From assembly GCA_958510825.1 (NCBI GenBank), contig OY294044.1, positions 102,834,893-102,898,892 on the forward strand: DNA of 64,000 nt, given 5' to 3'. Below, piece by piece: positions 16,568-64,000 of the stretch. The notes beneath the pieces are model-generated. The model saw nothing but the letters and a program-made list of their open reading frames with translations, ran no database searches and was not told the origin of the DNA. The position numbers and the translations under genes were made by a program. How positions within the stretch are numbered: the stretch's first letter is position 1; each line of letters starts with the position of its first letter. This DNA is from Brachypterus glaber (lineage: Eukaryota > Arthropoda > Insecta > Coleoptera > Kateretidae).

Positions 16568-16978
16568 CTATTTCTCCCAAAAGTGCACCCAACCGAAAAA
16601 ATTATATGATTCGCAGTCTTGAACATTTGGCTGTTCGTGGACCCATCTGCAAAACTCCATTCTGAGAGCGTGGCATAAATTTTGTACGCGAATATATTGG
16701 TAGGGACGCCGATTATCTTTTTTCATAATGGTATTTACGGTGGTGCGTCTAAGGTTGAGATTCCTTGCAATTTCCCTTACACTAGCATCTCCGTCATTGT
16801 CGAATGCCTCTTCTACCTCCGGAGCCCTAACTGTAATCAGCGCTCCACAATTTTCTCTTCTATCCAGTAACACGTTACCTGTACCGCCGTTAAAAACAAG
16901 GGGGTGGGATGAACTCTTTCGGGTACATTTCTTAATACACTCTGGCTGCATTTTCTGCATTTCTGCCACATCCTCCAT
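16568..16978 (-). pseudogene. Tc1/mariner-type transposase N-terminal fragment
   Basis: A 136-codon frame (ATG at 16,976-16,978). Residues about 45-120 read as a helix-turn-helix DNA-binding region: RAPEVEEAFDNDGDASVREI, then ARNLNLRRTTVNTIMKKD, then RPYQYIRVQNLCHALRMEFC. The pattern of a homeodomain-like HTH, followed by a PY...Q/RVQ-L stretch and R-x-x-FC-x-W, is what I know from IS630/Tc1/mariner transposases of insects. The frame stops before any DDE catalytic block, so only the DNA-binding half remains. No terminal repeats could be paired around it. The most plausible alternative is another HTH transposase family with the same N-terminal fold. Confidence 0.6.
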
Positions 16979-28861: not shown

Positions 28862-30035
28862 CTAAATATTATTAGTATGTGTATCAAATTTCAGTTGATG
28901 ATCCAATGTAATCCCAAGGTCCCTAATTGTATCAACAGAAGCTAAAACAGTATTGTCAATAGAGTAAGAACTATTAACTTTGATATGTCCCATGTATAAA
29001 GATATTTTTTGACATTTCTTTACATTTAAAAACAACCGATTCCTGTCACACCACTCAACAAGTCTGTTAAGGTTACTTTGCAAAAGATGGACGTCATTCG
29101 AGTTAGAAATCTGTCTGTAGAATTTCAGTTCGTCTGCAAACAACAAAATATCACTAAAATGGAAGTTTTTGTTAATATCATTAATAAAAATAAGAAATAA
29201 TATAGGGTCACAGTGTGACCCTTGAGTTACGCCTGACGTAGCAGAAATGATGAAGGATATAAAAATACCAATTTTTACTGCCTTACAAAGTGCACACTAA
29301 AACCAAACTCCAGTAACTTTTAACTTAATATAGGATGATCGACACTGTCAAAAGCCTTAAAAAAATCAGTGTATATAGAATCGATTTGACCATTAACATT
29401 TTCAAAAACATCTAAAATAAACCTGTTGTAAACTAAAAGATTAGAGACTCTTGAGCGATTTTTACAAAAACCATGCTGTTAGTTAATTAGAAGCTCTTTA
29501 CATGACCATCTTAGCAGATAAACATCTGCTAAAAGACCTTAGGAATACAAGATTGAATGCATTCACTTCTATAAATAGAAATCTCTTCCCTAGGACCAGG
29601 TTTATGGACAGGCATTATGAAACTGTGTTTCCAAATATTAGGAAAAGATTCTTGCTTAAGAGATTCATTACAAATGATACATAAAGTATTCTTTGTCGTA
29701 CAAATACATTTTTTTAAAAAGAAGTTAGGAATGTCATCAGGACCAGAAGAAAGGGAATCAGGAAGGGAAGATATCTTATTAAAAATGTTCATAGTGGGAA
29801 AATTTGGACTTTCGATATTAGAATATGAGAACATAATATTATTGTCATCAGATACCGTGGAATTATTTTTAGAGTAAACAGTGGAAAAATATTTATCAAA
29901 AAGATTTGCAATATCTTGTCCACTATTTGCAGCTGCTTCATTCAAAAACATTGAATTGGGTAGATTATGAGTCAACCTCAAATCTTTTATATAATTCCAG
30001 AAATATCTGGGATTAGAAGTCAAATTTTGATCCAC
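28862..30035 (-). pseudogene. LINE A reverse transcriptase, broken
   Basis: Pieces in order on the minus strand: an RT N-terminal segment (29,529-30,035) with LSSGPDDIPNFFLKKC and IMPVHKPGP, which resemble the conserved S-G-PD-G-I-P and P-I-x-K-x-G blocks; palm motif A near 29,350 (FFKAFDSVDHPIL); TQGSHCDPILFLIFINDI near 29,200; and the active-site block read here as LFADELK (28,862-29,146), where the usual FADD has its second Asp replaced by Glu. The fragments lie in different frames with several stops. The enzyme is dead by frame, and by an active-site substitution if the base is correct. Family resemblance is to the Jockey/CR1 group of insect LINEs. Confidence 0.8.
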
Positions 30036-30391
30036 ATTTGTAATATAGTTAGTATAGCATCCATCTGATAATATTTTGCGTTGATTTCTGAGATAACTAA
30101 ATATGATATAATCATTAAAATTATTGGTATTTTTATATCTTTTATGAGCATTTTTTTCCTGTAAACCAAAGTTCTTAATTGAGCATTAGACCATTTAGGC
30201 TAATTGGATGTTTTACATCTTTTAATTGGGACAAAATTTTTCATTCCTATGCAAAAAAAAAATCATAAAACAGTTCACATACTTCATTAATATTTTTGTT
30301 GAAAAAACATTCCTCCCAATTAATTGATGAGTAGTAATCATTCAGAGCTATGTAATTGGCATTTTTAAAATCGTAATATGTTTCGTTATAT

Positions 30392-31120
30392 TTAAGTATT
30401 TAAATCTTTAACACGTAAACTAAAAGTATAAGCATAATGCTGAATACTGTTAGGTGACAATAAATCAATAGTTAATGCTACATTAACATAATTGCAATGA
30501 GTAAACAAAAGATCTAAAAAAGTTTCTGTATTAGGTATATTGTTTACCTGATATAGGTTAAATAAAGAAAAGTTACGAAATACAAGTTCAGCGTTGTCAT
30601 CCACAGGATAGGAAACGGTAGCTCCAAGTTGATCATTAACCCAAGTAGCAGCAGGTAAGTTATAATCACCAAATATGGCCAGTGACTTTCTGGGTGCAAA
30701 TTTACAATTTCTTTAATGGATTGGCAGTGATCTAAATAAACCTGGGCACTAGAACGTGGTGGCATGTATAATCCTCCAATTAAAAACGAAGATCTATCAA
30801 TAACAACCGGCACAAAGACTTGTTCTACAGAATTAATGCTTTTTTGTTTGTACTTGTTTAGAGCAAATGTGGTTCTGAACTAGTTTCAGGACACCTCCTC
30901 CGCGGCTTTTAGTGCTAGTATGGAAATTTCGATCACATCTATAAACGTTGAAGTTGGTGAAAGTAAATCAGAGAAATCTGAGGCTAGCCAGGTTTCTGTT
31001 AAGATAACAATATCGTAAGAGCAACAAATCAAAGCTTTTCTTTTAACTTAGTACGTGTGCCAGTACAATTCTGATAATAGATATGTAGAGGAGATTTTAA
31101 AGATTTTTTAAATTCTTATT
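30392..31120 (-). pseudogene. LINE A apurinic-type endonuclease, broken
   Basis: From the 5-prime side, HIYYQNCTGTRTK near 31,080 matches the start of Jockey-group endonuclease domains. FLIGGLYMPPRSS (30,740-30,790) corresponds to the central strand, a G-D-Y-N-L-P-like block lies near 30,655, and DLLFTHCNYVNVAL (30,450-30,520) is the late T-x-LDL-x-F block. At least two frame changes and several stops separate them. It belongs to the same ORF2 as the reverse transcriptase downstream. The target-nicking function is inferred from the family only. Confidence 0.7.
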
Positions 31121-31259
31121 AACAATTAGTGGGATGCCTTTGATGTATTTAATGGTAATATCAGAATCTCCATTTTTAGTTCTAGCTTCCAAATCCAATC
31201 TTAAAGATTTTAAATGTTCTCTTTGCAATAACGTTAAGTTAGAAGAAATCTAAAAATAC

Positions 31260-31260
<1 letters not shown>

Positions 31261-31292
<32 letters not shown>

Positions 31293-31408
31293 CATTTATT
31301 CCAGCCTAAAGGCCATATGACAAAGATAGTAATAACATAACAAAAATAAAAAAAAAACAAAAATTAAAATTAATTATAAATATTTACAAAGGTGAAAGTG
31401 AAGGTGGT
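31261..31408 (-). repeat. LINE B 3-prime end with (ATT)n tail
   Basis: The plus strand reads ten TAA units (31,261-31,291) then TGCATTTATTCCAGCCTAAA. On the minus strand this is GGCTGGAATAAATGCA followed by (TTA)n, a typical CR1/L2-type LINE 3-prime terminus with microsatellite tail. It is separated from the LINE B coding part (35,849 onwards) by the CACGG-ended element, whose TACA duplication lies at 31,409-31,412 and 35,823-35,826. Confidence 0.78.
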
Positions 31409-32316
31409 TACACACGGTACTCTTGAATGATCAATAGGTTGAACTAACGTGGCAAAAAAATCTGACCATGGAACATGGTAGTAGAAGGTTCACTTGTTAT
31501 AGAATCACCGACAGCCAAATCCCAAAAACTTGTTTTTGGAAAATAATGTTAAATAACCATCTGCAGAGTTCATGGTCAATACAAACTTAAAGTGTACATT
31601 ATGTTGCATGATTTTGGTAGTAATTCTCGTGCTGATTCCGAATATGTTTTAAGTTACTCCCTATCTTTTTCCCTTTTTGAGAGAAAAGCGTATAAAAATC
31701 TCAAAAATTAATTTTTCGCATGTTTGAATGTAGCCTAGACATTTTGCTATAAGACAATAAAATAACTTTCTTAGCCTAAATTATTGTCCGATTCTCGTTC
31801 TGTATTATTATAAAGGAACATCTCGTCTAACATTTTTGTGAAAATTTTTAAAATTTTATTATAAACGTGTTTAAATTAAAAAATTAATTATTTTGTTACA
31901 TAGTGTTCATAATATATCTTTCACTTTGAAAAGTAATTGTCAGATGTGTACATAGACGGTCCTAAAGTTATTTTCTATATTTTGCCCAGACAAAAACATT
32001 TATTATTATAGACTTCACAGTGTGAAGTATTGAACGATGGTTTTTAAATTAAATTAAAAACTCATCAACAATTTACCTGAGATCAAAAGTTTTTTACAAT
32101 ATACACGTTTTTTTATCAAATTCTGAACTACCTTCTTTCATTTTCTGTATAAAAAATAAGTAAAAATTAAAGGAATTAGATTTATATGCTTATGAATTTA
32201 AAAATGGCTGCTTGTTTTTTTTCTAATACATGATAATTAAAGCTTAAGCATATAGCATATTATGTCTAAACAAAATAAAATAAAAATGCCCTTATGTAAA
32301 ACATAGGTTTATTCAT

Positions 32317-32529
32317 CTAAATAAAAAAAATAATAAGATGACGACAAGAAACACAAATTGATACTGGGAACCTCCAATTGTTAACATCATAGTGTTCATT
32401 AATATGTATTTTCATAAGGTCTTCCAATTTTTTAGTTATCCTAAAATGGACTTTTTTACATTTTTTAAATGAAATTTTCACGCCGCAGGCAGCACAAACT
32501 TTTTTTCTATTATTTTCGTGGTCGCTCAT
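32317..32529 (-). CDS. Small putative zinc-binding protein or exon
   Basis: 70 codons with ATG at 32,527-32,529. The sequence has a CAACG pair near residues 13-17 and a CVSCR pair near residues 58-62, with a basic linker (VHFRITKKLEDLMKIHINEH) between. CxxC...CxxC spacing suggests a single treble-clef-like zinc site. It is the only protein-like frame in the single-stranded middle of the CACGG-ended element, so it may be the first exon of that element's transposase or an accessory protein. A FPxSICVSCR-like end occurs, as far as I recall, in uncharacterised insect transposon proteins. I do not recognise a defined function. It could also be a chance frame. Confidence 0.45.
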   Translation of the reverse strand: MSDHENNRKKVCAACGVKISFKKCKKVHFRITKKLEDLMKIHINEHYDVNNWRFPVSICVSCRHLIIFFI

Positions 32530-33009
32530 TATCTAAGATAAATTTAAAAGTTATCAGTATAGAAGCAATTATTTATTTTATATAACCGTAATATAAATTC
32601 TTTTTGGCAAAATATCACTCTTAAATCAAATATATAATTATTAAGTTCAAAATACTTACATATATGTAAATAATACTAAAGGTAAAAAATAAAAGCCTTC
32701 ATCAAAATTCAACATTTATTGTTATAACATTATTTCTGACAAATAAGTCAATTTATAACAAGCTAGTAATAGGTAGGTTAATAGTATTATTAACATTCTC
32801 AAGTATTCGGTAAAAATTATTAACGCGCCTCTGTGTTGGACAAATCAATCAAATCTGAAACATCTGTAATGACACTGATTAACAAAAAAAAAGTATTTTA
32901 ATAAAAACGCGATTTCAAGGGTGTTTAAATATGTATTTAGATTTACCAAAAGAAAAAAAAATCCAATCGGACTACAATTTAAGCCAAGAAAGTTATTTTA
33001 TCGTCTTAA

Positions 33010-35482
33010 CCCGGCGTCACCGTGGTAAGATATTGTAACAAACTACACGTGGTGGGGTATGCCACACCCCATTTATTTATATCAACTAAAAAATATATTT
33101 TTTTAAATTTGTGAAAAATATACATTTTTTTTGTTAGAATAAAGCCCACTTAAGTTTAATAAATCAACTTTATTACATGTATTATAATACAAATTAAGTT
33201 AGCCTTAGCCTATTGAAATTATTAAAAATTGAGATTCTAAAAAACACTTTGCCATACAAAAACTTAAAACAAAAAAAAAATACACAAATTTTAATGGACA
33301 ACTTAAAAAAATTAAAACAAACAAAATAATTATTCAGAATTTTGGTGCCCTTCGGGTAAACAGCCATTACAAAAAAAATTGGCGTGTTCCAAACTCAAGT
33401 GCTTATTGCACTGCTGGCAAAAGTAATTTGTCTTCCTGTCTTTGGACCTTGAGCAAACTGAACACCTTCCTTGTATTTTTTGTCTTTTTTGAGGGGGTAT
33501 AATTGTTTCTCCTAATCTTTTAGCAATATTTTCACGAATTGGCCTACTTACACGCATATTATTTATACGTTCAAGTTGGTGGTCTCTAATCAACGCCAGT
33601 CCTAATTGTTTTAAGAATATACGCCTTTTTATATTTAAATTATTAGTATTTTCACGATATATAATTTTTGAATTAATTCCAGCAACGTTTAATAATGTAA
33701 AAAATATTGTGTGGCCATCTTCTGCTGTTACGTGAAACATTATACGTCGCACAAAGCTCATCTACTACATCCACACCACCCTTAGTCATATTATAAAACT
33801 CAATAATTTCGGGCTTTTTGCGTTCATCATTTTCATTAACGGTATTGTCATGGTGAAGTGACGATAGCAACAAAACAATTTTATTACTTTTTGACTTATA
33901 CGAAACGAGTGTAGCATTCTTTTGGAACCCAAATTTTGACGAAAACAATGGTCTGTTTTTTGTTGTAATAAATGATGGAGGGATTTCTCGTTTATTTTTG
34001 CGCAAAGTGCCAACTGACGTTAACTTATGCTCTTTTAGTAAATGGTTTATTAGTCTATAACTTGTAAACCAATTGTCGAACGTAACATTTCTTTTTGATT
34101 TTGATACTGGAGCAATAAGCCTGTCCACGATACTGAAAGCAGAGTTGTCCAGTTTATATGGCCCTTCAGGTTGGGATCCAGCATAAACTTCCATGTTGAA
34201 GACGTAAAACGTTTTTGCGTCCACTAAAGTAAAAATTTTAATACCGTATTTTGCGGGTTTGTTAGGCATGTATTGCCTAAAAGGACACCTGCCTCTAAAC
34301 GATTCTAATTTTTCGTCAACAACCACATACTCACTTGGACTATAAGCTCTTTGGCAATGTTCTACAAATCACTCAAAAACTCCTCGAATAGCTGCTAATT
34401 TATCTATGCTTTGCCTTTGTCCTCGATTCTGAATGTTATCAAATCTCAGACAACACAAAAGAAAACTAAATCGATTTTTTGACATGGTTAAATGAAAAAT
34501 TTCAATACCAGTTCCATCTGTTTCCCAGAGGTCAATTGTATTCTGATGGTTTGAGCGAAATATTCCAGATAAATATAACAGACCAAAGAGCGCTTTTATT
34601 TCACAAATATTTGTTTGTCTTACTTCGTATTGGTGATTGTTATCGTAGAAGGCAGCTTCTTGGCAAATTTTTATGTTAGTGAATTTCACAATATCAGATA
34701 TCATTTCTTCATCAATAAATAAGCTCCATGCTGACAAGGGATCTCTTGCATTTTTGGCAAATTGTTTAACTGTTGGGAGGTGCAGTATAATGTTCTCAGA
34801 TCGAGTGCGTACATTACGATTGGTAAATTCAACATTCCACTTTGTTTCTTTATCTTTTCCATAATAGAATTTATTTTTTTTGCCCTGTCTTTGTTCTCTA
34901 TTTTCTTCTGTATTTCCCCGATCATCAGTTTCTTGCTCCGATTCCGAATCATAACTTTGCTCAGCATCCGCATTTTGAGTTTCGTTTGAGATAACATCCT
35001 CAGCTTCTTGTTCAGATGCTGAATCGTGTGAGCTTTCGCTCAGGTGATCGTTTTCATTGCTGCCATCAGAAGCAACTCCTTCTTCATCTGATTGAACTTC
35101 GGCCCACAAAGCAAGTAACCGAGCTTGCTCTTGTTCGTATGACATCGCTAGAATTCAGACAAAAAATATTGCATTTTTTGTTTAGATAACGTAATTTACA
35201 ATAATATACTGCTTAAAAATAAAAAAATAGCTTACCTGAAAAAAGCTAAATTTTGTTACGAATTTAACGTGGTGGGGTTTGGTATGCCCCACTAAGCTTT
35301 GGAAGCGTGCGTCTCTCTCTACATCTACGCTAAGACTAAACAACATCTGGCATTAATAAGTTGACCTTGTTAACTAAAGCTACTGAACACGAGAGGGCTT
35401 GAAGGCTTGAATAAGAGAAAATTTGGTGACGTGTTATTAAACTGCGTTGGGGCATATGACACCCCACCACGGTGACGCCGGG
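33010..35482 (-). mobile_element. piggyBac transposon, nearly intact
   Basis: 2,473 bases between CCCGGCGTCACCGTGG and CCACGGTGACGCCGGG, close to the usual length of an autonomous piggyBac. The left flank is TTAA (33,006-33,009); the right is TTAT (35,483-35,486). Subterminal GTGGGG(T)ATGCC repeats lie near 33,050, 35,280 and 35,450. It is inserted in the right arm of the CACGG-ended palindrome; the left arm preserves a copy of the empty site. The transposase is on the minus strand with only two lesions. Confidence 0.93.
33330..35145 (-). pseudogene. piggyBac transposase, one stop and one frameshift
   Basis: A DDE transposase of about 600 codons that would excise and integrate at TTAA. It starts at ATG 35,143-35,145 with an acidic N-terminus (34,970-35,140). 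The catalytic-domain blocks VVDEKLESFRGRCPF (34,280 region), NVTFDNWFTS (34,075 region) and KGGVDVVDELCATYNVSR (33,750 region) keep the three acidic positions expected for this family. The C-terminus is a cysteine-rich domain (CSVCS, CQQC, H, CNGC; 33,340-33,470) that binds the TIRs in known piggyBac proteins. The lesions are an in-frame TGA at 34,369-34,371, where a Trp codon is likely, and a one-base shift in a T run near 33,690. Otherwise it is continuous, so inactivation is recent. Confidence 0.93.
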
Positions 35483-35848
35483 TTATAACAAAATGTCTAG
35501 GCTACATTAAAACATGCGAAAAAATATTTTTTGTGATTTTTATAAGCTTTTTTCTCAAAAATGGAAAAAGGTAGAGAGTAACTTAAAACATATTCGGAAT
35601 CAGCACGAGAAATACTACCAAAATCAAGCAACATAATCTACACTTTAAGTTTGTATTGACCATGAACTCTGCAGACGGTTATTTAACATTATTTTCCAAA
35701 AACAAGTTTTTGGGATTTGGCTGTCGATGGTTCTATAACAAGTGAACTTTCTACTACCATGTTCCATGGTCAGATTTTTTTGCCACGTTAGTTCAACCCA
35801 TTGATCATTCAAGAGTACCGTGTACAAGAGAAAAAAACAGAGTTTCCG

Positions 35849-38040
35849 CTACTTTTCAATTATGGGAGATGACCAAAATACATCAGATGAAACCAATCCC
35901 TGCAAAAGTGAGTTTGAGCACTGTAGCAGACGATTTACAAAACTGGCAAGTTTTTTTCGACGCAGTGCATCTAAAGTATCTATGCGTGCTAAGGCAAACA
36001 TCTCCGATGCACTGGTATAACGTGGGTGTCTATGTAAGATGCGGTAAGAGTCATTGTAGCAGATACGCAGTGCGCGCCACGATGCCATGGTGTGATCGCA
36101 CCATAGCTCGCCCGAATAGAGGTTATAACAGTAGGTTTTAAACAGGAGATCTTTGACACTAACAGAACACTTTTGAAATTTCCTAGCAATCATGTTTGCC
36201 CGGACACATAGAGTTTTATAGTGACGTTGTATATCTTTGTTGTTACTCAGATTATCACACAGAAAATACCCAAGGTATTTGATTTCTGGCACCATCTCAA
36301 TTATTAAGAAATATCGGATGAACATGTAGATTTCTATAAACTGCTGGCTTGAAAACCATTAGCTTGCTTTTTTCGGTATTGTATAAGAGGTAATGTTTTT
36401 TCGCGATGTCTTCACATACCCGAACGAGCATACGAAGGCCCTCTAAAGACGGACTAAGAAGAACCATGTCGTCTGCATATGATACACAGTTCACCTTAAT
36501 ACTTCCACAGTAACATCCTGCTTGTACTTTAAGAAGTAAATAATGTATTTCATCTATGTATACATTAAATACTTCTGGGGCTAAAAGGCTTCCCTGCCGA
36601 ATACCATTGCACAAGTTGAATGTAGCTGAATTTGAGCAGCCCCAGAGGATAAATGCGTTTGCAGTCAGGTTCCAGCTTTGAATCATTCGGCATATGTAAC
36701 GAGGAACTTTTCGTTTTAGAAGTATCTTAATAAGTGTGAAGTGGTGAACCCTGTCAAATGCCTTACTTAGGTCAAGAAATAAAGCATATACCGGTGTATT
36801 CTTACGTACGTTATGCGTAACTGTTTCTTTGACTAAGTAGGTGGCATCAGCGGTGCCGACATGTTTTTTAAAACCAAACTGGTTATCACTTGTATGGAGA
36901 TATTGACGACATCTATATAGAATAACCAGCTCAAATGTTTTAGAAATCGAGGTTGACAAGGCAATAGGGCCGTAATTCGACGAGGACGAGACATCTCCAC
37001 TTTTATTTTTAATAAGAGGTACTATTATGCTTTTTGTAAGAGATGGAGAAGTAAATCCGTGGCAGAGCATACAGGAAAAGCAAATAGATAAATATGTGTA
37101 CAAAGACTGATGAGCGTGTATAATGTGTTCAGGACACAATCCATCCCATCCTGCTGCTTTGCCAGTCTTTAGCTGAGATACGGCAATTTTAATGTCATTA
37201 GGATTTACAGTACAGGTTTCAAAGTCTTCAGCCTCAATTGTATGAACAGGGTTATCTTCGTAAAGATTGCTTAGTCTTTTAAAGTGATTTGCCCAGTGTT
37301 CGGCAATGTTAGCTTCGCCAGATATTTGGTCAATAGAAGCAGCAACAGTGGAGGATGACTTTTTAAGTTTTCCGCAGGCTTTCCAGAATTTGGCAAAGTC
37401 CTTATCCGAGTGATGTGTAGCCAAGGCGTCCGAACGCAACTGTTCCTCACGCTGTCGTACTGATTTAAGTCTGTTTTTGAACAGTTTACGTAGTCTACGT
37501 CAACTATCGTTAAGAGGTCCACGATGCGGGCGTCCAGCATCCACCCAAGCTAAAAAAGCATTGTGTGCCCTATTGTAGGAGTCTGAAACTTCAGCTGACC
37601 AACCAGGAACAGCTCTAACAGTATGCTTCTTCTTTGGAAAGCTTTCAGAGATAGACTGTCGAAGCGTGTCCACAATGTTGTCATACAGCTTAGCAATTCC
37701 TTCAAAGTGCTCTAGTTTGCTGCAGGCAGTGTCACGACAATAAATTGCTTCAGGAAGAAATATATTGGTCAAATTTTTAAGACAATTCAATTTAAACTTT
37801 TGTATAGATAAATTACACCTTTCAGACCATTTTGGAATATCAGGTTTGTAGGTTAAAGTTTTAACTACCGCAGGAAGAATAGAAGTGTCCAGGTTAATAG
37901 AAAGTGGAAAATGGTCTGAGGGAGAAGTTATTAAGTGCACTTTAGTGGAGTTTACGCAGTTAACAGCGGCTTTAGAGACCAGGCATACTTTTTGTTTTAA
38001 AGTTTGAATGGGTAATTTGGTGTCAGATAAAATAAGCTTT
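35849..38040 (-). pseudogene. LINE B ORF2: endonuclease end, reverse transcriptase, C-terminus
   Basis: The minus-strand frame begins within the endonuclease (the SPSDHFPLSINL block near 37,905 is the conserved S-D-H end of that domain). It passes an in-frame TGA at 37,500-37,502 and continues as the reverse transcriptase (36,297-37,439 and upstream): KTGKAAGWDGLCPEHI, PLIKNKSGDVSSSSNY, ALFLDLSKAFDRVHHFTL (motif A), GIRQGSLLAPEVFNVYID (motif B) and VSYADDMVLLSPS (active-site YADD). A frameshift near 36,300-36,325 leads to the C-terminal part (MVPEIKYLGYFL to 35,849). The active-site residues are intact. It is 5-prime truncated at about 38,040, where repeat X begins. It belongs to the CR1/L2/Jockey group; I cannot fix the clade by eye. 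It is younger than LINE A, which it interrupts. Confidence 0.88.
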
Positions 38041-38345
38041 ATCCAATACATACAGATAATAAGACAACTACCAGCTTTATTTTAAATAGATAAACTCAAT
38101 AATAACCCCCCCGCGTGGCTTTTACTTTATTGAGTGGATAATTATTTATTTTACCCACTCAACTGTCACTTGTAAAATTATTTTCTTGTAAATGTCATTA
38201 AAGTTTTTAATAAAAATATGAATTCCTAAGCTATTTATTGGATAAAACCTTGTATGGCACTCATGGGTAAACCGATATTGCCCTCTCTAAAATTAACCTG
38301 CTTGGCTGACGCCTCGCAGGTTAATTTTCTCATGGGCAATATCTT
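38037..38345. repeat. Repeat X, copy 1, with terminal hairpin
   Basis: The segment from TTTATCCAATACATACAGAT to about 38,345 is repeated at 53,494-53,810. Its end (38,274-38,343) is a hairpin: GATATTGCCCTCTCTAAAAT pairs with the segment ending GGGCAATATC, with a fully paired inner stem AAAATTAACCTGC/GCAGGTTAATTTT. The unit abuts the truncated 5-prime end of LINE B. Confidence 0.75.
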
Positions 38346-46354: not shown

Positions 46355-48225
46355 TTCACGGCTATTTTGTTTTAAATATAGCTTTATTTTCTCTTTAAAT
46401 ACATTTATCGTGGCAGCATTTTGAGTTTCGAGTGACAAACAGTTAAATACCCTTGGGCCCAGAAAGAGGTAACTTCGTTGACCGAAAGTTAACCTCGCCC
46501 TGGGCTGAGCATACAACTGCTGCCTAGTATTATATGGCCTTTGTGTAACTAATAAGTGTTATATTGGTGAGTACAAGCCTAGAAAAAAAAAGTTGCCTTA
46601 AATCTAAAATGTTAGAGTCTCGAAAAACCAGTTCAGTTGAATATCTAAATTTTTGCCCAGCATAATTTTGAGTATTCTCTTTTGTATTGTCTCAACATTT
46701 TTTAAATGGTTATTGTATAACCCACCCCATGCAATAATCCCATAATATGGTCTCACCTAACATTATGTTAGGTGAGGCTCTACAAGCGATTGATACAGTG
46801 TTTTAAGTTGCCTAAAATTTAAAACATCTTTTAGACTTTTAAAAAAATATAGTAAGCTTCAAAGTTTTTTTGTTAGGTTTTCAATGTGAATATCCCATTT
46901 TAAACAAGAATCAATAAAAACACCCAGATATTTGACAGAATTGGCTTGTTGAATTTGTTTTGGGTCATTGTCAATATTAATGTTAAGCGAATTAAAGGTG
47001 GGCTTATTTACGGCGTTGATATGAAATGGAACGTAAACTGTTTTTTCTAGGTTTATGGTTAAAAGTTTTTTTTGAACTATTTTTTAATTTTTATTAAATC
47101 TTGCTCTATTAGGATTTTAAGTGACTCCCAGTTTTTTCCTTTAAATATAATAACGGTATCGTCCGCAAAACTTACTATAATACCGTTGATATTAAGATCA
47201 AACAGATTATTTAGGTAACAAATAAACAATATAGGTCCCAAAACGGTTCCTTGCGGTACCCCAAAAATTACCTGTTCATAGTAACACCGTTTAAGTTGAC
47301 GCATTGCTTTCGATTACTTAAGTAAGATTTAATTAAATTTAACGCAATACCTCTTATTCCAAGTTGTTCCAGAGCTTCCAATAATGACTCATGGCTAACT
47401 GTGTCAAAAGCCTTCTCTAGATCTAAAAATAGTGCCAGGGTGAGGAGACCTTTATCTAGGTTTTTGTATATTTTGGAAGTTACAAATTTTAACGCATCAT
47501 CAGTAGATTTTCCCGCTTGAAACCCAAATTGCTTATCAGACAGTACGTTAAATTTTTTAAAAAATTTGGTCAATCTTGTTTTTATAACCTTTTCAACAAT
47601 TTTTGCAAATACATTAATCAGGGAGATGGGACGATAGTTTTTAACAGTTTATCTCCTTTTTTAAAAATAGGTTTGATGATTGTTGTTTTAAATTTGTTAG
47701 GAAAGACGCCAGTTGCAAACATTTTATTTATTATAAAAACGAGTAGTTCTGCTATATAATTTGCAATAATTTTAATTGTATCAACTGTTATGTTATCATC
47801 TCCACATGACTTTTTTTATCTAAGGCAGATATTATATCTTGAATTTCTTTTATATTTGTATCATGTAAGTAAATAGAGTTTTTATTTCGTTTTGAAGTCA
47901 TTTTAAACTGTTTGTCTACCTTAATTTTTTCTGAAAGTTTTTTTTCCCATATCCGCATAACTTTTGTTAAAATGATCTGCAATTTTTTTTGGGTCAGTCA
48001 GTTTTCATTTTTAATTTCTGTTATATTGTTGTTTTTTTTTTCTTATGACCATTGATTTCCTTTACAGTTTCCCATAAGCCTTTACTAGATGATTTGTATT
48101 GTTCAATTTTATTTTTATAATATTTTATTTTAGTTTTTTTTTTATAAGGTTACTTAACATATTTCTATAGTTAATATATTCATTTTTAATGATTTCACTG
48201 TTAGGAAATATGATAACACATGTGA
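46355..48225 (-). mobile_element. LINE C, 5-prime truncated
   Basis: A minus-strand non-LTR retrotransposon inserted in the second FB1 copy: FB1 sequence stops at AAAATATAAAATTAAG (about 46,345) and resumes at GATAACACATAATTTTTTTA (about 48,230). GATAACACAT occurs three times at the 5-prime junction. It contains a broken reverse transcriptase and the usual C-terminal LINE tail (RSYLFLGPRVFNCLSLETQ) near 46,440. The endonuclease part is absent. Confidence 0.8.
46370..48200 (-). pseudogene. LINE C reverse transcriptase, broken
   Basis: Pieces in order: a thumb-side N-terminal part with KLSEKIKVDKQFKM (47,788-47,982); then FNVLSDKQFGFQAGKSTDDA with motif A ALFLDLEKAFDTVSHESLLE (47,268-47,573); then GVPQGTVLGPILFICYLNNL and the active site VSFADDTVIIF (47,077-47,304); and finally the SVKYLGVFIDSCLKWD block near 46,900. 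The catalytic Asp of motif A and the FADD pair are present, but at least three frameshifts and many stops follow the active site. It is a Jockey/RTE-group enzyme by motif style. A 47,268-47,304 overlap marks one frame change. Confidence 0.85.
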
Positions 48226-56699: not shown

Positions 56700-56815
56700 C
56701 AACAATAATGTTTTTTTTAATGTCCTATAAAAAAATCAAGTAGCTTGTTGGCGCCCCCTAGAACAATGGCCTCTTTGTCTATCTTATTTTGCTGACTTAA
56801 GCAGTATTCATTTAA

Positions 56816-56849
56816 TATAAATAGAGCTCCGCCTAGATTACCCTCAGAG
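56816..56849 (+). promoter_or_regulatory. LTR core promoter: TATA box and initiator
   Basis: TATAAATAG at 56,816-56,824, with a TCAGAG initiator-like site at 56,844-56,849. The A is 30 bases after the first T of the TATA box, the usual spacing in insects. The R region would start here. Confidence 0.7.
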
Positions 56850-57079
56850 CTGTATTAGACCTGAGTTAGATCGCACGTATCTTAAATTAGAGTTATCTCA
56901 AAACTATCTTAAATCTATCTCAAAGTTATAATCTTACAAGTATTAAATATATATCATTATAAATAATAAACAAGTGTCTAAATCAAGAAGATCTAGAACA
57001 TTTAAACCTTATAGTGAAGAAACTGTGACTATAAATACAAAATAACTGTGAAGTTATAAAATAAGTTTCGGAACCTCTT

Positions 57080-57120
57080 AATAAAAGGTTGCCCTGGTGT
57101 CAGAAGTAAATTAACCTTTT
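57080..57120 (+). terminator. Poly(A) signal with a hairpin whose loop holds a PBS-like copy
   Basis: AATAAA at 57,080-57,085 overlaps an 8-base stem (AAAAGGTT 57,083-57,090 with AACCTTTT 57,113-57,120). The 22-base loop contains TGGTGTCAGAAGT, identical to the first 13 bases of the primer-binding site at 57,161. Confidence 0.65.
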
Positions 57121-57160
57121 TTTTATGTTGTGTTGATCAAGGAATACAACATAGGAATTT

Positions 57161-57178
57161 TGGTGTCAGAAGTGGGAT
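57161..57178 (+). other. Primer-binding site, tRNA-Leu type
   Basis: TGGTGTCAGAAGTGGGAT is the reverse complement of a tRNA 3-prime end reading ATCCCACTTCTGACACCA, which fits tRNA-Leu (acceptor strands of the GTCAG... type). Minus-strand DNA synthesis would start here. It marks the LTR edge. Confidence 0.85.
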
Positions 57179-57421: not shown

Positions 57422-57714
57422 CATTTTTCAAGTTTTTTCACTTTATAATATAAATGTTCATCCTATCCTATATCCTATATAAATAAAACTTGATATAAAT
57501 CATAAATCTTATATATCTCAAAAAATAAATATTTTTTGAGTCTATCTCAAAAATAAAAATATTTTTGAGTCATCTTAAATCAATATAAAAAGAAATAAGT
57601 AAGAATTAAAATACGATAACTCATAAAACAAATAAAATACAATTATTATACAACTCTCCTTTGAATAATAAAAAAAAAAAAAATTGTTCAAAGTTATATA
57701 TTTCAAGTTCAAAA

Positions 57715-58743
57715 ATGTCTAACTCAAATCCAATAACATCAAGCCAAGAACCAAATCAAAATCAAAATGAAAATGATATGATAAGCGACGATAATTCAAT
57801 CATTGTAAACAATGATCTTCCATTAACTGTACTTTTTAAGTTTATAAAACCATTTACGGGTGATAGGCTCGAACTTAACACATTTATACAAAATACGAAC
57901 AGTGCTTTCTCTTTAGCATCCCCAAATCAGAAAGATAGTTTATTGTTATTTGTTGTTGCACAGTTATCAAGCAACGTCGTAAATGAGTTGGAATTAACTG
58001 ATATCGACTCATGGTACGAACTTAAACAAAAATTAAAACAATATTATAGTCAAACAAAGCATCTTGTACAAGCACATGAAGAATTAGAAACAGTCAGGCA
58101 ATTTTCAAACGAATCTATAACTGATTATTTTAAAAGAATTGAAAAAATAAAAAATGAATGTATTCAATCTGAAATAAACAATTGTGAAGATTTTCAGGAT
58201 TTACCTGGATTAAAACGATCTATTCAGCGCACTGCTTTACGTAGGTTTATAATTCATTGTAAACCAGAAATCAGTCAAATGTTACGAGCTAGAGAACTTA
58301 ATTCACTTAATGATGCCTATAATCTTGCTCTGCAAGAAGAAAAAATAATCAATTATACAAAACAAAAAACTAATATAAATATGTATTGCAAATATTGTAA
58401 AAATAATTCACATAACTCGCAAAATTGTCGCAAAAGAGGTCCCTATAGAGGTCCACCTATCAATACAAATCAAAATAGGTATACAAATCCTAATTTTTCA
58501 AATAATAATTTTTACAATAACCCTTCTACGTCAAATAGTTATAATAATTCTTATCAAAAATTTTGCAATTATTGCAAAAAGCCAGGACATTTAATTTCTG
58601 AATGTAGAAAAAGACAATTTAAAAATAATCAATTTTCTAATCCAAGAGTAAATCATTTAAACTGCCAAGGGTCCACTGTGTCGAATGTCCCTCAGGATAC
58701 GGACCACAAAAAAGAGGCATTCCCATCTCAAAACCAGAAATAA
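57715..58743 (+). CDS. gag: Gag polyprotein with two zinc knuckles
   Basis: 342 codons from the ATG at 57,715 (context CAAAAATGT). The frame stays open upstream to a TTG at 57,661, but that part is poly-Lys and has no ATG. Residues about 30-220 form a predicted helical capsid-like region with PFTGDRLELNTFIQ and the FSNESITDYFKRIEKIK block typical of Ty3/gypsy Gag. Two CX2CX4HX4C knuckles follow, at residues 225-238 and 284-297, separated by an Asn/Tyr-rich linker. They would bind the genomic RNA. The well-known Drosophila errantiviruses lack clear CCHC boxes as far as I recall, so this is notable. The last 100 bases overlap the pol frame. Frame intact, no lesions. Confidence 0.93.
   Translation: MSNSNPITSSQEPNQNQNENDMISDDNSIIVNNDLPLTVLFKFIKPFTGDRLELNTFIQNTNSAFSLASPNQKDSLLLFVVAQLSSNVVNELELTDIDSWYELKQKLKQYYSQTKHLVQAHEELETVRQFSNESITDYFKRIEKIKNECIQSEINNCEDFQDLPGLKRSIQRTALRRFIIHCKPEISQMLRARELNSLNDAYNLALQEEKIINYTKQKTNINMYCKYCKNNSHNSQNCRKRGPYRGPPINTNQNRYTNPNFSNNNFYNNPSTSNSYNNSYQKFCNYCKKPGHLISECRKRQFKNNQFSNPRVNHLNCQGSTVSNVPQDTDHKKEAFPSQNQK
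58656..58662 (+). promoter_or_regulatory. -1 ribosomal frameshift site TTTAAAC
   Basis: In the gag frame the codons are CAT TTA AAC, giving the canonical X-XXY-YYZ heptamer T-TTA-AAC. The pol frame is -1 relative to gag and is open from 58,641, so the site lies in the overlap. Seven bases downstream GGTCC (58,670-58,674) can pair with GGACC (58,701-58,705), a candidate stimulatory stem. No other canonical heptamer is seen in the overlap. Confidence 0.8.
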
Positions 58744-61421
58744 ATGAATGTGTAAATATTTCGCATAATATAAACCTTCAACCTAATTCAAATTTAAATA
58801 CAATTACGTTTAATATGACTAATGCCTTAAATAAACATATAACATTCTTAATTGATACAGGTTCTACTACGACTATTGTAAAATCAACGGCTTTAGTACC
58901 TCATTTGACCCCTTTAGATAAGAATGATCTCATTGAAATAAAAGGTATAACAAACGATAACTCCATACAATCCTTCGGGTCAGCAAATTTAGAATTTATC
59001 ATAAATGATATAACTATTCCTCACAAAAGTCATGTCGTCAGTGGTGGCGAATTAAATACAAATTTTGACGGTATTTTGGGTACTGATTTTCTTAAAAAAC
59101 ATAATGTCTTACTTGATCTTTGTAATAATAATATAATTATTGATAATAAAAAAATAAAACTTAATAAAGAAATTTCACCGAAAGAAATAATATTGGAAAA
59201 ATCACAAACATCAGAAAATAAAATAAAAATTCCGCCTTATTGTGAATTTATTGCTGAAATAAATATTTCACAGAACAATTTAAAATATGGTCTCATTGAG
59301 AAAAAACAAATTCATCCTAATGTTTTTATTCCCGATATTTTAATTAATAATGATAATCATAAAGCAATCATACCTATATTAAATATGAATGAAAATGAAG
59401 TTTTAATTGAAAAACCTACTTTAGATTTAGTAGATTTAAATAAATTTGAAGAAATTAATTATTTTAATTCAAAAATAAATAATAATCAAACTAATAGAAA
59501 TAAAATATTAAAAGAAAAAATTCATACTGATCACCTTACTTCCGATGAAAATCAAGCCATTCTAAATATTTGTGAAGAATTTTCAGATTTATTTCACTTA
59601 CCTGGTGAATATTTAACTTCTACAAAAACTCTAAAACATTCTATTCATACAAAACATGACGCTCCTATAACTTGTAAAACTTACAGGTATCCGAAAGTAC
59701 ATGAAAAAGAAGTAAATTTTCAAATAAATCAAATGCTTGAACAGAATATTATCAGACATTCTAAATCACCTTATTCTAGCAATCTATGGATTGTTCCTAA
59801 AAAACTAGATTCCTCAGGTAAAAGAAAATGGCGACTTGTAATAGATTATCGGAAATTGAATGATATTACTATAGGCGATTCTTTTCCTTTGCCTAATATT
59901 GAAAATATCTTAGATCAACTCGGAAATGCTGTATATTTCACAGTTCTAGACTTATCCTCTGCTTTCCATCAAATTGAAGTGGAAGAATCAGATAAGTGCA
60001 AAACCGCTTTTTCTACTCCATCAGGACATTACGAATTTAATAGAATGCCTTATGGATTAAAAACCTCCCCCGCGAGTTTTGTTAGGAACATGTCGATAGT
60101 ATTATCCGGCTTAATTGGCGAAAAATGCTTTTGTTATTTAGACGATATTATAATTTATGGCAAAGACCTTGCTGATCATATTAATAAACTTAGGTCAGTA
60201 TTTCAAAGATTAAGGGAACACAATTTAAAATTGCAACCCGATAAATGTGAATTTTTACATAGGGAAATTAAATTCTTAGGACACATTATTTCAGATAAAG
60301 GTGTAAGACCAAATCCAGAAAAGGTCGAAGCTATTACAAATATTGCTATTCCTAAAACTCAAAAAGACGTAAAGTCTTTCCTCGGATTAGTTGGCTACTA
60401 TAGAAAATTTATTCCTGATTTTTCAAAAATCGCTAAACCTTTAAACACATTATTAAAAAAAGATTCTCAATTTGTCTGGACAGATAAATGTAACTTATCC
60501 TTTCAAAAATTAAAAAATACTTTAACAAGGGAACCTATATTACAATATCCTAATTTTAATAAAAAATTTAGTCTTACTTGCGATTCTTCAAATGACCAAA
60601 TATCAGGCATATTATCGCAGGAAACTCAAGGAAAGGACTTACCAATTTCCTATTTTTCAAAAACCCTTAACAAGGCGCAACAAAATTATTCTACTACTGA
60701 AAAAGAATTGTTTGCAATCGTAGAGTCTTGTAAACATTTTAGACCTTATCTTTTTGGGAAAAAATTCGATATATATTGCGATCATAAACCATTAATTTGG
60801 TTAAATAACTGCAAAGACCCTTCTAGTAAACTCTTAAGATGGCGCTTAAAATTAATGGATTATGAATATGAAATAAAATATAAAGCGGGAAAAGATAATA
60901 TTAATTCTGATGCACTTAGTCGTTTAAAATTAGAAAAAACTGATTCAAATAATCAAGTTTCTATTGATAAAATCATAAATAATAACTTAAATGTTAAAAA
61001 TGACAATGTCATAATAATTCATGATAACATTTTTAACCCCTTAAATAAAAGATCATTAGCTCACTGTGTATCAAAAGATTTTTACATGAATAAAGGTATT
61101 GCACTGGATTTTAAAAACAAATTTAAGTCTGTCGATATACTCAAAAATCAAAATAAAAAAGTAGGTGAAGTAGCTTTTATAAATGTAAATGGTAGAAAAA
61201 TATATTACTTAATTACAAAAGAAAATTATTTTGATAAACCTACTTATAAAACTGTTTCTCAGTCTTTAGAATATTTAAAATCGTTATTAATAAAATTCAA
61301 AGAAACTGAAGTTTCTATGCCACAAATCGCTTGTGGATTAGATAAACTCGAATGGAATATTATTTTCAATTTAATTAAATTTATTTTTAAAGATTCAAAA
61401 ATAAAAGTATATATTTTATAA
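58662..61421 (+). CDS. pol: Pol, first part: protease, RT, RNase H, macro domain
   Basis: Expressed as a Gag-Pol fusion after the -1 shift; the first internal ATG is at 58,815, and residue numbers count from there. Aspartic protease: FLIDTGSTTTIV (active-site D14). Reverse transcriptase: WRLVIDYRKLND, FTVLDLSSAFHQIEV (motif A), RMPYGLKTSPASF and CYLDDIIIYG (YLDD at 441-444), then FLGHIISDKG. RNase H: catalytic candidates D590 (TCDSSN), E631 (TTEKEL) and D656 (YCDHKP), ending near DALSRL (699). Then comes a 137-residue macro domain (732-868) not normally present in this family. The frame stops at TAA 61,419-61,421, and the integrase is in the -1 frame. All catalytic residues are kept and there are no internal stops, so the copy looks young. 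Confidence 0.95.
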   Translation: MPRVHCVECPSGYGPQKRGIPISKPEINECVNISHNINLQPNSNLNTITFNMTNALNKHITFLIDTGSTTTIVKSTALVPHLTPLDKNDLIEIKGITNDNSIQSFGSANLEFIINDITIPHKSHVVSGGELNTNFDGILGTDFLKKHNVLLDLCNNNIIIDNKKIKLNKEISPKEIILEKSQTSENKIKIPPYCEFIAEINISQNNLKYGLIEKKQIHPNVFIPDILINNDNHKAIIPILNMNENEVLIEKPTLDLVDLNKFEEINYFNSKINNNQTNRNKILKEKIHTDHLTSDENQAILNICEEFSDLFHLPGEYLTSTKTLKHSIHTKHDAPITCKTYRYPKVHEKEVNFQINQMLEQNIIRHSKSPYSSNLWIVPKKLDSSGKRKWRLVIDYRKLNDITIGDSFPLPNIENILDQLGNAVYFTVLDLSSAFHQIEVEESDKCKTAFSTPSGHYEFNRMPYGLKTSPASFVRNMSIVLSGLIGEKCFCYLDDIIIYGKDLADHINKLRSVFQRLREHNLKLQPDKCEFLHREIKFLGHIISDKGVRPNPEKVEAITNIAIPKTQKDVKSFLGLVGYYRKFIPDFSKIAKPLNTLLKKDSQFVWTDKCNLSFQKLKNTLTREPILQYPNFNKKFSLTCDSSNDQISGILSQETQGKDLPISYFSKTLNKAQQNYSTTEKELFAIVESCKHFRPYLFGKKFDIYCDHKPLIWLNNCKDPSSKLLRWRLKLMDYEYEIKYKAGKDNINSDALSRLKLEKTDSNNQVSIDKIINNNLNVKNDNVIIIHDNIFNPLNKRSLAHCVSKDFYMNKGIALDFKNKFKSVDILKNQNKKVGEVAFINVNGRKIYYLITKENYFDKPTYKTVSQSLEYLKSLLIKFKETEVSMPQIACGLDKLEWNIIFNLIKFIFKDSKIKVYIL
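61008..61418 (+). other. TARG1/OARD1-like macro domain inside Pol
   Basis: Residues 732-868 of pol. The order of blocks follows the cellular TARG1/OARD1 macro domain end to end: a first strand VIIIHDNIF, then SLAHCVSKDFYMNKGIA (ligand loop), GEVAFINVNGRKIYYLITK, DKPTYKTVSQSLEYLK, SMPQIACGLDKLEW and a final KIKVYIL. In human TARG1, Lys84 forms the covalent intermediate and Asp125 assists. Here K802 (LITK) and D843 (CGLD) occupy these places at the same spacing of 41. Known family role: removal of ADP-ribose from Glu/Asp side chains of proteins. The adenine-contacting Asp near the first strand (G-D-L-F in the family) reads D-N-I-F here. Its position between RNase H and integrase is where some lentiviruses carry dUTPase. 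Alternative: a binding-only macro domain. Confidence 0.92.
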
Positions 61422-63094
61422 AAGAACAACATAATGTTAACTATATTCAACCAGAAGAAGATTTAACATTTGATAACTTTAAAAATTTTCATCAAAGAGA
61501 AATTAGAATTCCTAAACCAACTATAGTAAATACTCCCTTAAACAGGATAAAAAACTTTGTAATTCCTTTATCCTGTGATTTATCAAACAATAATAAATAC
61601 ATTGATTATATTTACAAACACAATTTAACTATTCCTAATGCGAAAATAAAAGAAATAAATTTAAAACGATTACCTCAACAATCTCTTTATTTAGCTTTTA
61701 TTAAGGAATTTATAGATGAATCCGCACTTTATGAAATTCTATTTGACACACTTTATAATCTTAGACTTTTATTGCAACATAATGAAACTAAATATTTTAC
61801 TATACCAGATATTTCAGAAAATAATGATATTATTAAACAAGATACATTTTATACTTTATTATATTTTCTATTTAGGGACTTTAAGTATGAAATACTTTCC
61901 GATGAACGTATTACTTTAACAGACCCAGATCTAATTAAAATTATTCTACAAGAAAATCACGATTTACCATCTGCAGGTCATCAAGGTTTTGAACGAACCT
62001 ATGAAAAAATTAAACAATATTATTTTTGGGATAATATGAAAAAAGAAATTAAAGACTATATTAAAAATTGTCAAACATGTCAAAAATCTAAAACAGACTT
62101 TAAACATAATAAAAGCCCCATGTTAATAACTACCACAGCTTCTAAATTTAATGAAAAAATTGCAATGGATGTAATCGGACCTTTACCAGAAACTCAAAAT
62201 AATAACAGATTTATTCTAACAATTCAAGACGATTTAACTAAATTCATCCAAGCATTTGCTATGCAAAATCATGAAGCAACAACTATTGCTATATATTTAA
62301 TAAAATATTGTTCACAATTCGGTTTTCCTAATGTACTCTTATCAGATCAAGGTCGCGAATTTACCTCAAATATTATAAAGGAACTTAATAAACTTTTAAC
62401 AATAAAACATAAGTTTACAACTCCTTATCATCCTGAAAGTAATGGAGCACTAGAACGTACCCATTTAACATTAAAAGAATATTTTAAATGCTATGTTAAT
62501 AAAGACCAAAACAATTGGGACGAATTTTTAAATTTAGCAATTTTCAGTTATAACTCAAGTATACATAAGTCCACTCAAAAAACCCCATACGAATTAGTCT
62601 TTGGACAACGTGCAAGAATTCCTAGCCATATAAATTCTCCAAAATTTAAACCTAATTATTCAGATCTAGCTAATGATATAACTAATAAATTAAGAATTTT
62701 ACGAGAAACTGCAAGAGATAATCAAATAAAAGCAAAACAAAGTTCAAAAAATTACTTCGATAAATCTCATAATAGAGAATATAAATTCTACGCAGATCAG
62801 TTAGTATTATTATACGACAGCTTATCTAAAATTAAAAAGAAAAAGCTTACTCCGAATTATAAAGGTCCCTATAAGATAGTACAAGTACATGATAATAATA
62901 CTGCGACTCTATCTATAAATAATAAACTTAAAACGCATCATTTCAATAAATTAAAACCGTATATTGTTTCAGACAATAACATTGAAGAAAACAATGAAAA
63001 TGTTGAATCAGAATCAGAAATTGACCTTCGTAGTATTCCTAGTAATTTTCCTTCTGACTTTACCGAATCAAGGCCTAGCACGTCTCAGCAATAA
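61391..63094 (+). CDS. pol: Pol, second part: integrase
   Basis: Open in the -1 frame relative to RT/RNase H from 61,391 (after TAA 61,388-61,390) to TAA 63,092-63,094; the first ATG is not until 61,772, so it is most likely read as part of Pol. An N-terminal tether-like region with IPKPTIVNTPLNRIKNFV is followed by an HHCC zinc domain (HQGFERTYEKIKQYYFW, then CQTCQKSK; 61,979-62,095). The catalytic core has D (62,168, AMDVIGPLP), D (62,345, LSDQGREF) and E (62,453, NGALERTH), with exactly 35 residues between the last two. The C-terminus has a GPY/F module (KGPYKIVQV). The last 100 bases overlap env. The -1 offset is either a one-base lesion in a T/A run near 61,415 or a second recoding event. 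Confidence 0.93.
   Translation, partial: RFKNKSIYFIKEQHNVNYIQPEEDLTFDNFKNFHQREIRIPKPTIVNTPLNRIKNFVIPLSCDLSNNNKYIDYIYKHNLTIPNAKIKEINLKRLPQQSLYLAFIKEFIDESALYEILFDTLYNLRLLLQHNETKYFTIPDISENNDIIKQDTFYTLLYFLFRDFKYEILSDERITLTDPDLIKIILQENHDLPSAGHQGFERTYEKIKQYYFWDNMKKEIKDYIKNCQTCQKSKTDFKHNKSPMLITTTASKFNEKIAMDVIGPLPETQNNNRFILTIQDDLTKFIQAFAMQNHEATTIAIYLIKYCSQFGFPNVLLSDQGREFTSNIIKELNKLLTIKHKFTTPYHPESNGALERTHLTLKEYFKCYVNKDQNNWDEFLNLAIFSYNSSIHKSTQKTPYELVFGQRARIPSHINSPKFKPNYSDLANDITNKLRILRETARDNQIKAKQSSKNYFDKSHNREYKFYADQLVLLYDSLSKIKKKKLTPNYKGPYKIVQVHDNNTATLSINNKLKTHHFNKLKPYIVSDNNIEENNENVESESEIDLRSIPSNFPSDFTESRPSTSQQ
62963..62972 (+). promoter_or_regulatory. Candidate 3-prime splice site for env mRNA
   Basis: ATTGTTTCAG ends at 62,972, a short pyrimidine stretch plus AG. 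The first ATG downstream (62,994) is in the env frame, and there is no stop between. Pairs plausibly with the donor at 57,416. Confidence 0.45.
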
Positions 63095-64000
63095 ATATGA
63101 AATTATTCCATTACAAACAACGGCTGGTCTATTATACCATAATCTTGGTAAAACGCATATATCAAATGACAACTTCGCACTTTTAACTTATTATAATCTT
63201 TCTCACATTGATTATCAAATAAACCAAATTTATAACTATTATACCTTATTACTAGATCTATGCAATTTGGAACAAGCCGATCGCATAAATTTAGACTGTA
63301 AAAATCAATTAAGATATATAAATACTAAATTTTTATCTATTAAAGAATCTTATAAAATAATCTCTCATGAACTTAATGTTCTTACACGCAGAAAACGTGG
63401 TATCTTAAATGTAGTCGGTGACGCATTTAAATGGCTTTTTGGCACACCAGATGCTGATGATGCTCAATTTTATACGGACTCTATTAATCAAATTATAAAT
63501 AATCAAAAACAAACTGAAGTTTTAATGCAACAGCAAGTTTCAATAATATCTCAAACAATATCTAATTTTAATAATTCAGTTATACGCATGAATGAAAATA
63601 TTTTAACTTTAAATAATAATCTTGACAAATTTAATAAATTTACTAAAGAAGTACAAGACTTTAAACAACAGTTGGATTTTGAAATTGAAATATCTAATCA
63701 TTTAATTTTACTTATTGAAATGACTGACGAAATTCAAACTCTTTTAGAAAACTATGTTAATGACGTTTCGTTAATTCAAAATGGCATTATAAACTATAGA
63801 ATTTTATCACCAGAAACATTATATCGAGAGTTACAAAAAATATCTACAAAATATACATTACCTATTCCATTATCTTTAGAAAATATTTATCATTATTATA
63901 AAATAATAACATTAAGATCATTTATAAAAAGTAAATTATTGGTAATATCTTTTGAAATACCAGTTGTTTTAGCAAATGAATATGATTTGTATCAAATATT
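62994..64000 (+). CDS. env: Env, baculovirus-F/Errantivirus type, cut by window end
   Basis: The frame opens at ATG 62,994 (a second ATG at 63,000) within the integrase 3-prime end and stays open for at least 335 codons to the window edge. Residues about 8-29 are a hydrophobic signal peptide followed by a likely cleavage region. A furin-type site RRKR is at residues 132-135, followed by a glycine-led stretch (GILNVVGDAFKWLF) in the position of the F-protein fusion peptide. Downstream is a Gln/Asn/Ile-rich, coiled-coil-like region (residues about 165-235). The small N-terminal subunit and large C-terminal subunit match the layout of Errantivirus Env and baculovirus F proteins. The transmembrane segment lies beyond the window. 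Probably expressed from a spliced RNA. No lesion is seen in the visible part. Confidence 0.9.
   Translation, partial: MKMLNQNQKLTFVVFLVIFLLTLPNQGLARLSNKYEIIPLQTTAGLLYHNLGKTHISNDNFALLTYYNLSHIDYQINQIYNYYTLLLDLCNLEQADRINLDCKNQLRYINTKFLSIKESYKIISHELNVLTRRKRGILNVVGDAFKWLFGTPDADDAQFYTDSINQIINNQKQTEVLMQQQVSIISQTISNFNNSVIRMNENILTLNNNLDKFNKFTKEVQDFKQQLDFEIEISNHLILLIEMTDEIQTLLENYVNDVSLIQNGIINYRILSPETLYRELQKISTKYTLPIPLSLENIYHYYKIITLRSFIKSKLLVISFEIPVVLANEYDLYQI

Follow-up and report, generated by a model that had tools for sequence, protein, structure and literature searches.

The stretch of Brachypterus glaber DNA analysed here (the window, 64,000 nucleotides) contains a long terminal repeat (LTR) retrotransposon that runs past the window end (Table 1). 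Judged by its gag, the order of protease, reverse transcriptase (RT), RNase H and integrase in its pol, its LTRs, its short target duplication and its Baculo_F-type env, it is an errantivirus-like, env-bearing Ty3/gypsy element. The env frame continues for 338 further codons past the window end. A single mismatch separates the two 406-bp LTRs, and a 4-bp target duplication, AGCT, is present on both sides; with this one LTR difference the window copy is young. An earlier reading of this DNA (the original prediction) claimed that pol carries a macro domain of the TARG1/OARD1 class between RNase H and integrase, and the domain order confirms this placement.

Table 1. Features of the retrotransposon (window coordinates unless stated) and of the Gag-macro frames (coordinates within each locus)
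Feature	Position	Strand	Detail
5′ LTR	56746..57151	+	406 bp, TG...CA
Primer-binding-site-like sequence	57161..57177	+	TGGTGTCAGAAGTGGGA, assigned by eye
gag open frame	57610..58743	+	Retrotrans_gag E 2.9e-8; CCHC knuckle under cut-off
pol open frame	58641-61421	+	RVP-RT-RNaseH-macro
Aspartic protease	58830..59114	+	RVP E 1.8e-4
Reverse transcriptase	59799..60290	+	RVT_1 E 1e-39
RNase H	60552..60863	+	RT_RNaseH E 3.7e-35
Macro domain 1, TARG1/OARD1 type	61008..61418	+	Lys71 and Asp112 of 137 align with the TARG1 dyad
Stop codon closing the pol frame in the window copy	61419..61421	+
Integrase frame	61391-63094	+	Different from the pol frame
Macro domain 2, degenerate	61451..61939	+	Core about 61514-61918; directly before integrase
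Integrase zinc-binding domain	61922..62095	+	Integrase_H2C2 E 3.3e-22
Integrase core	62147..62434	+	rve E 4.3e-11
env open frame, Baculo_F type	62955..64000	+	E 9.7e-18
3′ LTR	G000:C1:102900160-102900565, past window end		1 mismatch to 5′ LTR
Gag-macro frames	L032 2265-3815; L033 2142-3692; L037 4691-6244

Translation of 61008-61418 (+) gave a block of 137 residues with all of the motifs quoted in the original prediction. A phmmer search of PDB sequences matched five TARG1/C6orf130 sequences to this domain (macro 1) with E-values of 7.8e-33 to 1.1e-32, human TARG1 being matched at 7.8e-33. The alignment to human TARG1 is gapless and places Lys71 and Asp112 at the predicted spacing of 41 residues; we take these to be the counterparts of Lys84 and Asp125 in the human enzyme. 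An AlphaFold2 model of the domain had a mean predicted local distance difference test score (pLDDT) of 91.1 and a predicted template modelling score (pTM) of 0.87, and the top eight Foldseek matches to this model were all TARG1 (E 8.4e-17 to 2.1e-14). The best of these superposed with a template modelling (TM) score of 0.94 and a root mean square deviation of 1.5 Å at 44% identity. By contrast, the Pfam Macro model PF01661 gave no report on the window copy at E≤1. A scan with Pfam only would miss this domain, which may thus have been overlooked elsewhere. The sequence match and the predicted fold go far beyond what chance would give and show that domain 1 is a TARG1-type macro domain inside Pol. 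In the available text of one study, the catalytic residue of TARG1 is Lys84 (PMC8501950).

Two features of the locus had been overlooked in the original prediction. The first is that the window copy has a stop codon at the end of macro 1 and its integrase lies in another frame. Among the 42 rows of the window's family (at least 90% identity), eight have a single open frame of 1484 aa, and in seven copies (L004-L010) the frame runs through to the integrase zinc motif. Because these relatives are open at 61419..61421, the break is a property of the window copy. Other copies are open at this point, which leaves a programmed frameshift from the macro into integrase unsupported. The second feature is a degenerate macro domain (macro 2) that trails macro 1 in the window's clade.

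The 648-Mb genome (842 contigs) was searched with the macro protein, which gave 605 first-look candidates, 150 of them scored and matched; 42 of these 150 rows had at least 90% identity (manual count). We read 51 loci (L003-L030 and L039-L061), of which 28 came from macro matches, 14 from RT matches beyond the macro list and 9 from a search that used the RT of P0007, a pol protein described below; they are not a random sample. The RT searches scored the best 120 and the best 110 of about 3000 candidates, so more distant gypsy lineages are unsampled. Within this set the macro was readable in 39 loci, in 38 of them over more than 125 residues. Lys and Asp are kept in all 38 (as GLD, GRD or GKD), and the one shortened macro, in the 39th locus, keeps them too. 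The macro is broken in six of the 51 loci (L045-L048, L052, L060) and no macro was found with a hidden Markov model (HMM) in L042, L053, L054 or L055; L027 and L029 were left out of this reading. Counting broken copies, a macro is present in 13 of the 14 loci taken from RT matches, and in 6 of the 9 taken from the search with P0007. L054 and L055 lie far out on the RT tree, which is limited to rows with a long RT stretch; L053, L059 and L060 are among the rows missing from it.

At 80% identity the 38 Pol macros form 12 families. In ten of these the macro comes after the RT/RNase H part, and in nine of the ten the integrase zinc motif lies behind the macro in the same frame, the exception being L044, where the frame ends first. 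In the other two families (L016/L028 and L056/L057) the macro sits near the end of Pol, some 350 residues past the integrase zinc motif. Outside this genome, the order RT-RNaseH-macro-IN in one frame was also found in the proteins P0004 (Harmonia), P0005, P0007 and P0009, and the best-scoring pol relative of the window element is from the beetle Harmonia axyridis. The original prediction treated the domain as a private capture by the window element, a view that is not supported, with a Pol macro in 12 families of the same genome, in Harmonia axyridis and in Logan-derived pols. It had also named two refuting outcomes, neither of which came true: the match to the macro fold is strong, and what might have been an unrelated tether is a genuine macro domain. 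L042, L053-L055 and P0070 are without it, the absence being clean in P0070 and L042. P0070 belongs to the window's clade and has macro 2 without macro 1.

Two of the Logan proteins have further features. P0012 (1025 aa) is an integrase-chromodomain-macro frame, followed by a stretch resembling a rhabdovirus glycoprotein (E 0.0019, under the cut-off), and is another type of element with a macro domain. P0007 (1547 aa) is a gypsy-like pol with a macro, and by eye it has a look-alike of an OTU-type cysteine protease between protease and RT; this stretch had no Pfam match at E≤0.5.

The identity of macro 2 was examined by profile comparison. Aligning the macro 2 and macro 1 profiles with hhalign gave 94.3% and a score of 51.9, as compared with 19.7 or less in 100 shuffles. 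The macro HMM matched domain 2 with 17.8 bits (independent E-value 1.1e-5). Of the first ten hits for domain 2 in a separate comparison, five were TARG1 rows. We suggest that macro 2 is probably a non-catalytic spacer or a ligand-binding module. No macro was supported in the region ahead of integrase in the second superclade, with 62 of 100 shuffles equally good. As a comparison, a set of insect proteins (P0008 from Homalodisca, P0010, P0011 and P0015 from Diabrotica, and P0013 from Cinara) also has a TARG1-type macro with a degenerate macro-like domain behind it. Unlike the window element, these tandem-macro proteins look cellular: they lack pol, and their N-terminus is of low complexity. The B. 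glaber genome contains one exon of a gene of this kind (C4:38389536-38389916, E 9e-11, the sole match), and its macro 1 was not found within the 9.9 kb read. The second domains of the element and of these proteins had no mutual match (51 of 100 shuffles equally good). Joint capture of both domains from a tandem-macro host gene is therefore unsupported, since each second domain matches macro 1 and they do not match each other, and it is further weakened by P0070.

A separate search of the genome with a Cylas OARD1-like protein, in which 150 rows were scored, uncovered another element with a macro domain. About 65 of the 150 rows share one match range (manual count), and we read L032, L033, L037 and the fragment L034. 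The frame, of 516-517 aa, combines an N-terminus that by eye is Gag-like with a TARG1-type macro domain; the Pfam scores for PNMA (E about 0.01) and PF01661 (E 6e-4) are both under the cut-offs. L037/L038 is an LTR element with LTRs of 1116 bp that are 99.9% identical, and its inner part has no second frame of at least 120 aa within the 5.5 kb read. This Gag-macro element looks non-autonomous. It is present in high copy number, and at G000:C1:84.1 Mb a distance of 7115 bp separates two of its copies.

One alternative is that the domain acts as a reader and not as an eraser. It would then anchor Pol or the pre-integration complex on ADP-ribosylated chromatin or DNA breaks and so steer integration, much as chromodomains do in chromoviruses. 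Consistent with this, the domain adjoins integrase, the macro of P0012 follows a chromodomain behind integrase, two families carry it behind the integrase zinc motif, and the degenerate macro 2 stands in front of integrase. However, a pure reader would not need the catalytic Lys and Asp, which all 38 copies retain, and in the Gag-macro element the domain is distant from integrase. We regard the reader explanation as unlikely.

To gain information about constraint, we compared 15 pairs, of which L018/L019 is the only one of moderate divergence; the rest are near-identical or saturated. For the macro of L018/L019, nonsynonymous divergence (dN) was 0.100 and synonymous divergence (dS) was 0.57, giving an omega of 0.174. 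Omega was 0.089 for RT-RNaseH, 0.087 for integrase and 0.232 for the region between macro and integrase. In this one informative pair the macro is under purifying selection. A passive spacer between RNase H and integrase, with the dyad kept by chance or for folding, would agree with the ability of P0070 and L042 to manage without the domain. It would also agree with the identity of the region behind the macro, which within clades is kept as well as macro 1 (73% versus 63% in L004/L014, 62% versus 65% in L022/L024 and 80% versus 82% in L018/L019). By contrast, in five distant pairs, including pairs between superclades, that region has 25-30% identity and macro 1 has 50-63%. Given this difference and the invariance of the dyad across the 38 readable copies, we consider a passive spacer very improbable.

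From one row set, rows shorter than 100 aa, rows lacking an SLAHC-type anchor and P0037, P0046, P0049, P0056 and P0060 were excluded. The Pol macros clustered with support of 94/86 over 15 rows; with 19 rows the support was 91/84, and P0007 fell outside. Metazoan OARD1, an Athalia pol, P0012 and the Gag-macro fell outside this clade. The separation from metazoan OARD1 fits an old capture. The original prediction proposed that a host OARD1-like cDNA had been captured and that a phylogeny would bear on this; the Pol macros did form one group, apart from metazoan OARD1, and a recent origin from a host OARD1 cDNA is unsupported.

We also considered whether the distribution is better explained by several captures, or by exchange of the macro as a cassette between lineages, than by a single ancestral capture followed by losses and moves. 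The macro occurs in four places: after RNase H, after integrase (L016/L028 and L056/L057), after a chromodomain (P0012) and within Gag (L032/L033/L037). On the RT tree, L011 and its relatives make up a superclade with support of 100/98, yet the macro data with 10 rows rejected it as a clade in an approximately unbiased (AU) test (p 0.013). In addition, identity between L004 and L011 is 63% for the macro, 54% for RT and 33% for integrase. However, the same question asked with 7 rows gave p 0.165. Neither a single clade of Pol macros (20 rows, including P0007; p 0.47) nor the grouping of all retroelement macros (24 rows; p 0.079) was rejected. L016 and L056 fall within the Pol clade, so that the move behind integrase needs no new capture. 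The alignment has 136 columns, and because only one of nine AU tests gave p below 0.05, exchange is a lead and not a result. Multiple captures or exchange is quite possible, but we do not favor it over a single capture. P0027 was left out of one AU-test run, L026 and L034 were left out of the 19- to 24-row set, and the 10-row set also omitted L001 and L033.

We think it likely that a TARG1-type hydrolase is a standing part of Pol in this group of env-bearing insect Ty3/gypsy elements and that it counters restriction by host ADP-ribosylation. The macro would be made within Gag-Pol and would be present in the particle or the pre-integration complex, beside RT/RNase H and integrase. This placement would bring it into contact with the element's proteins and cDNA. 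There it could strip ADP-ribose placed by host PARP-family enzymes on element proteins (at Glu/Asp), RNA or cDNA, and such removal would counter a restriction based on ADP-ribosylation. According to the available text of two articles, the ADP-ribose on which human TARG1 acts may be Glu/Asp-linked, RNA-linked or thymidine-linked on DNA, and a Lys84 mutant fails on thymidine-linked DNA ADP-ribose in rescue assays (PMC8501950; PMC11920425).

Several points weigh against this reading. The existence of P0070 and L042 without macro 1 means that replication does not always depend on the domain. In the window copy itself, integrase cannot be made in one frame with macro 1. Omega was usable for one of the 15 pairs, the near-identical pairs being scattered (for instance, 0.49 for the macro of L016/L028 and 1.45 for the RT of L022/L023) and the others saturated. 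Human TARG1 (also named OARD1 or C6orf130; PDB 4j5r, 4j5s) resembles domain 1 in fold, length and Lys-Asp spacing, with about 45% identity. It is, however, a free cellular protein with an Asp at the adenine-side position of the DLF motif, presumably the binding residue Asp20, which is not known to be a defining one, whereas the domain in the window is part of a Pol polyprotein and has Asn there, as does P0009. This Asp is kept in P0004, P0005, P0006, P0007, P0012 and P0018. Because of the Asn, our claim is limited to a TARG1-type domain and does not extend to TARG1 itself. Finally, we infer the hydrolase activity, its substrate, its place of action and its benefit to the element.

Several known systems resemble this arrangement in part. 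Non-primate lentiviruses encode a dUTPase in Pol between RNase H and integrase, which is likewise a hydrolase captured from cells and placed at this point of Pol but differs in fold and chemistry. Alphavirus nsP3 and coronavirus nsp3 contain macro domains that act against host PARPs; these share the macro fold within a virus replicase and belong to another macro class. In Foldseek, alphavirus rows had 8-12% identity to domain 1. In fish epsilon-like endogenous retroviruses (ERVs), macro-domain open reading frames were reportedly described by Basta and coworkers in 2009. In the available text of a review, these fish ERVs are likewise reverse-transcribing elements with a macro domain, carried as additional open reading frames (PMC4977317), whereas here it lies inside an insect Ty3/gypsy Pol and is joined, in elements of the window's clade, by a degenerate tandem copy. 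We found no report of the RT-RNaseH-macro-IN arrangement in the literature on macro domains in retroelements, as judged mainly by titles and the beginnings of abstracts, and the word "macro" is absent from the available portions of PMC13172572 and PMC12992720. The arrangement is provisionally new, although Chary and Hayashi (2025; metazoan errantiviruses) or Basta (2009) may describe the domain.

When a retroelement carries an eraser of one host modification and that eraser is selected in many families, the modification points to a host weapon. No ADP-ribosylation-based defense against retroelements is known to us in insects, although no search aimed at it was made. We tentatively propose that insect env-bearing Ty3/gypsy elements carry a mobile TARG1 module, found at four positions, perhaps exchanged between lineages and, in one clade, doubled by a degenerate partner. 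It would be kept because ADP-ribosylation of incoming Pol complexes, cDNA or RNA by the host is a hitherto unseen antiretroviral defense in insects. The question can be tested on natural relatives that differ in having the domain (L011/L018 versus L042, and P0004/P0005 versus P0070), and the macro domain can be used as bait for its substrate.

TARG1-like domains also turned up outside retroelements. In IMG/VR, query P0001 and RT alignment A5 had no match and query A2 matched two loci, L001 and L002. L001 contains a stand-alone TARG1-like open reading frame (512-1033) on a 78.8-kb viral contig, and its protein groups with metazoan OARD1 (95/95). In P0014 and P0016 (ENA; 669 and 661 aa), precomputed Pfam annotation shows fusion of a TARG1-type macro with DNA ligase III-like domains that are accompanied by BRCT domains. 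Elsewhere in the window, by-eye remains of piggyBac-type and mariner-type transposases and of LINE reverse transcriptases lie at 33330-35154, 16568-17017, 28862-38081 and 47268-47648, all on the minus strand.
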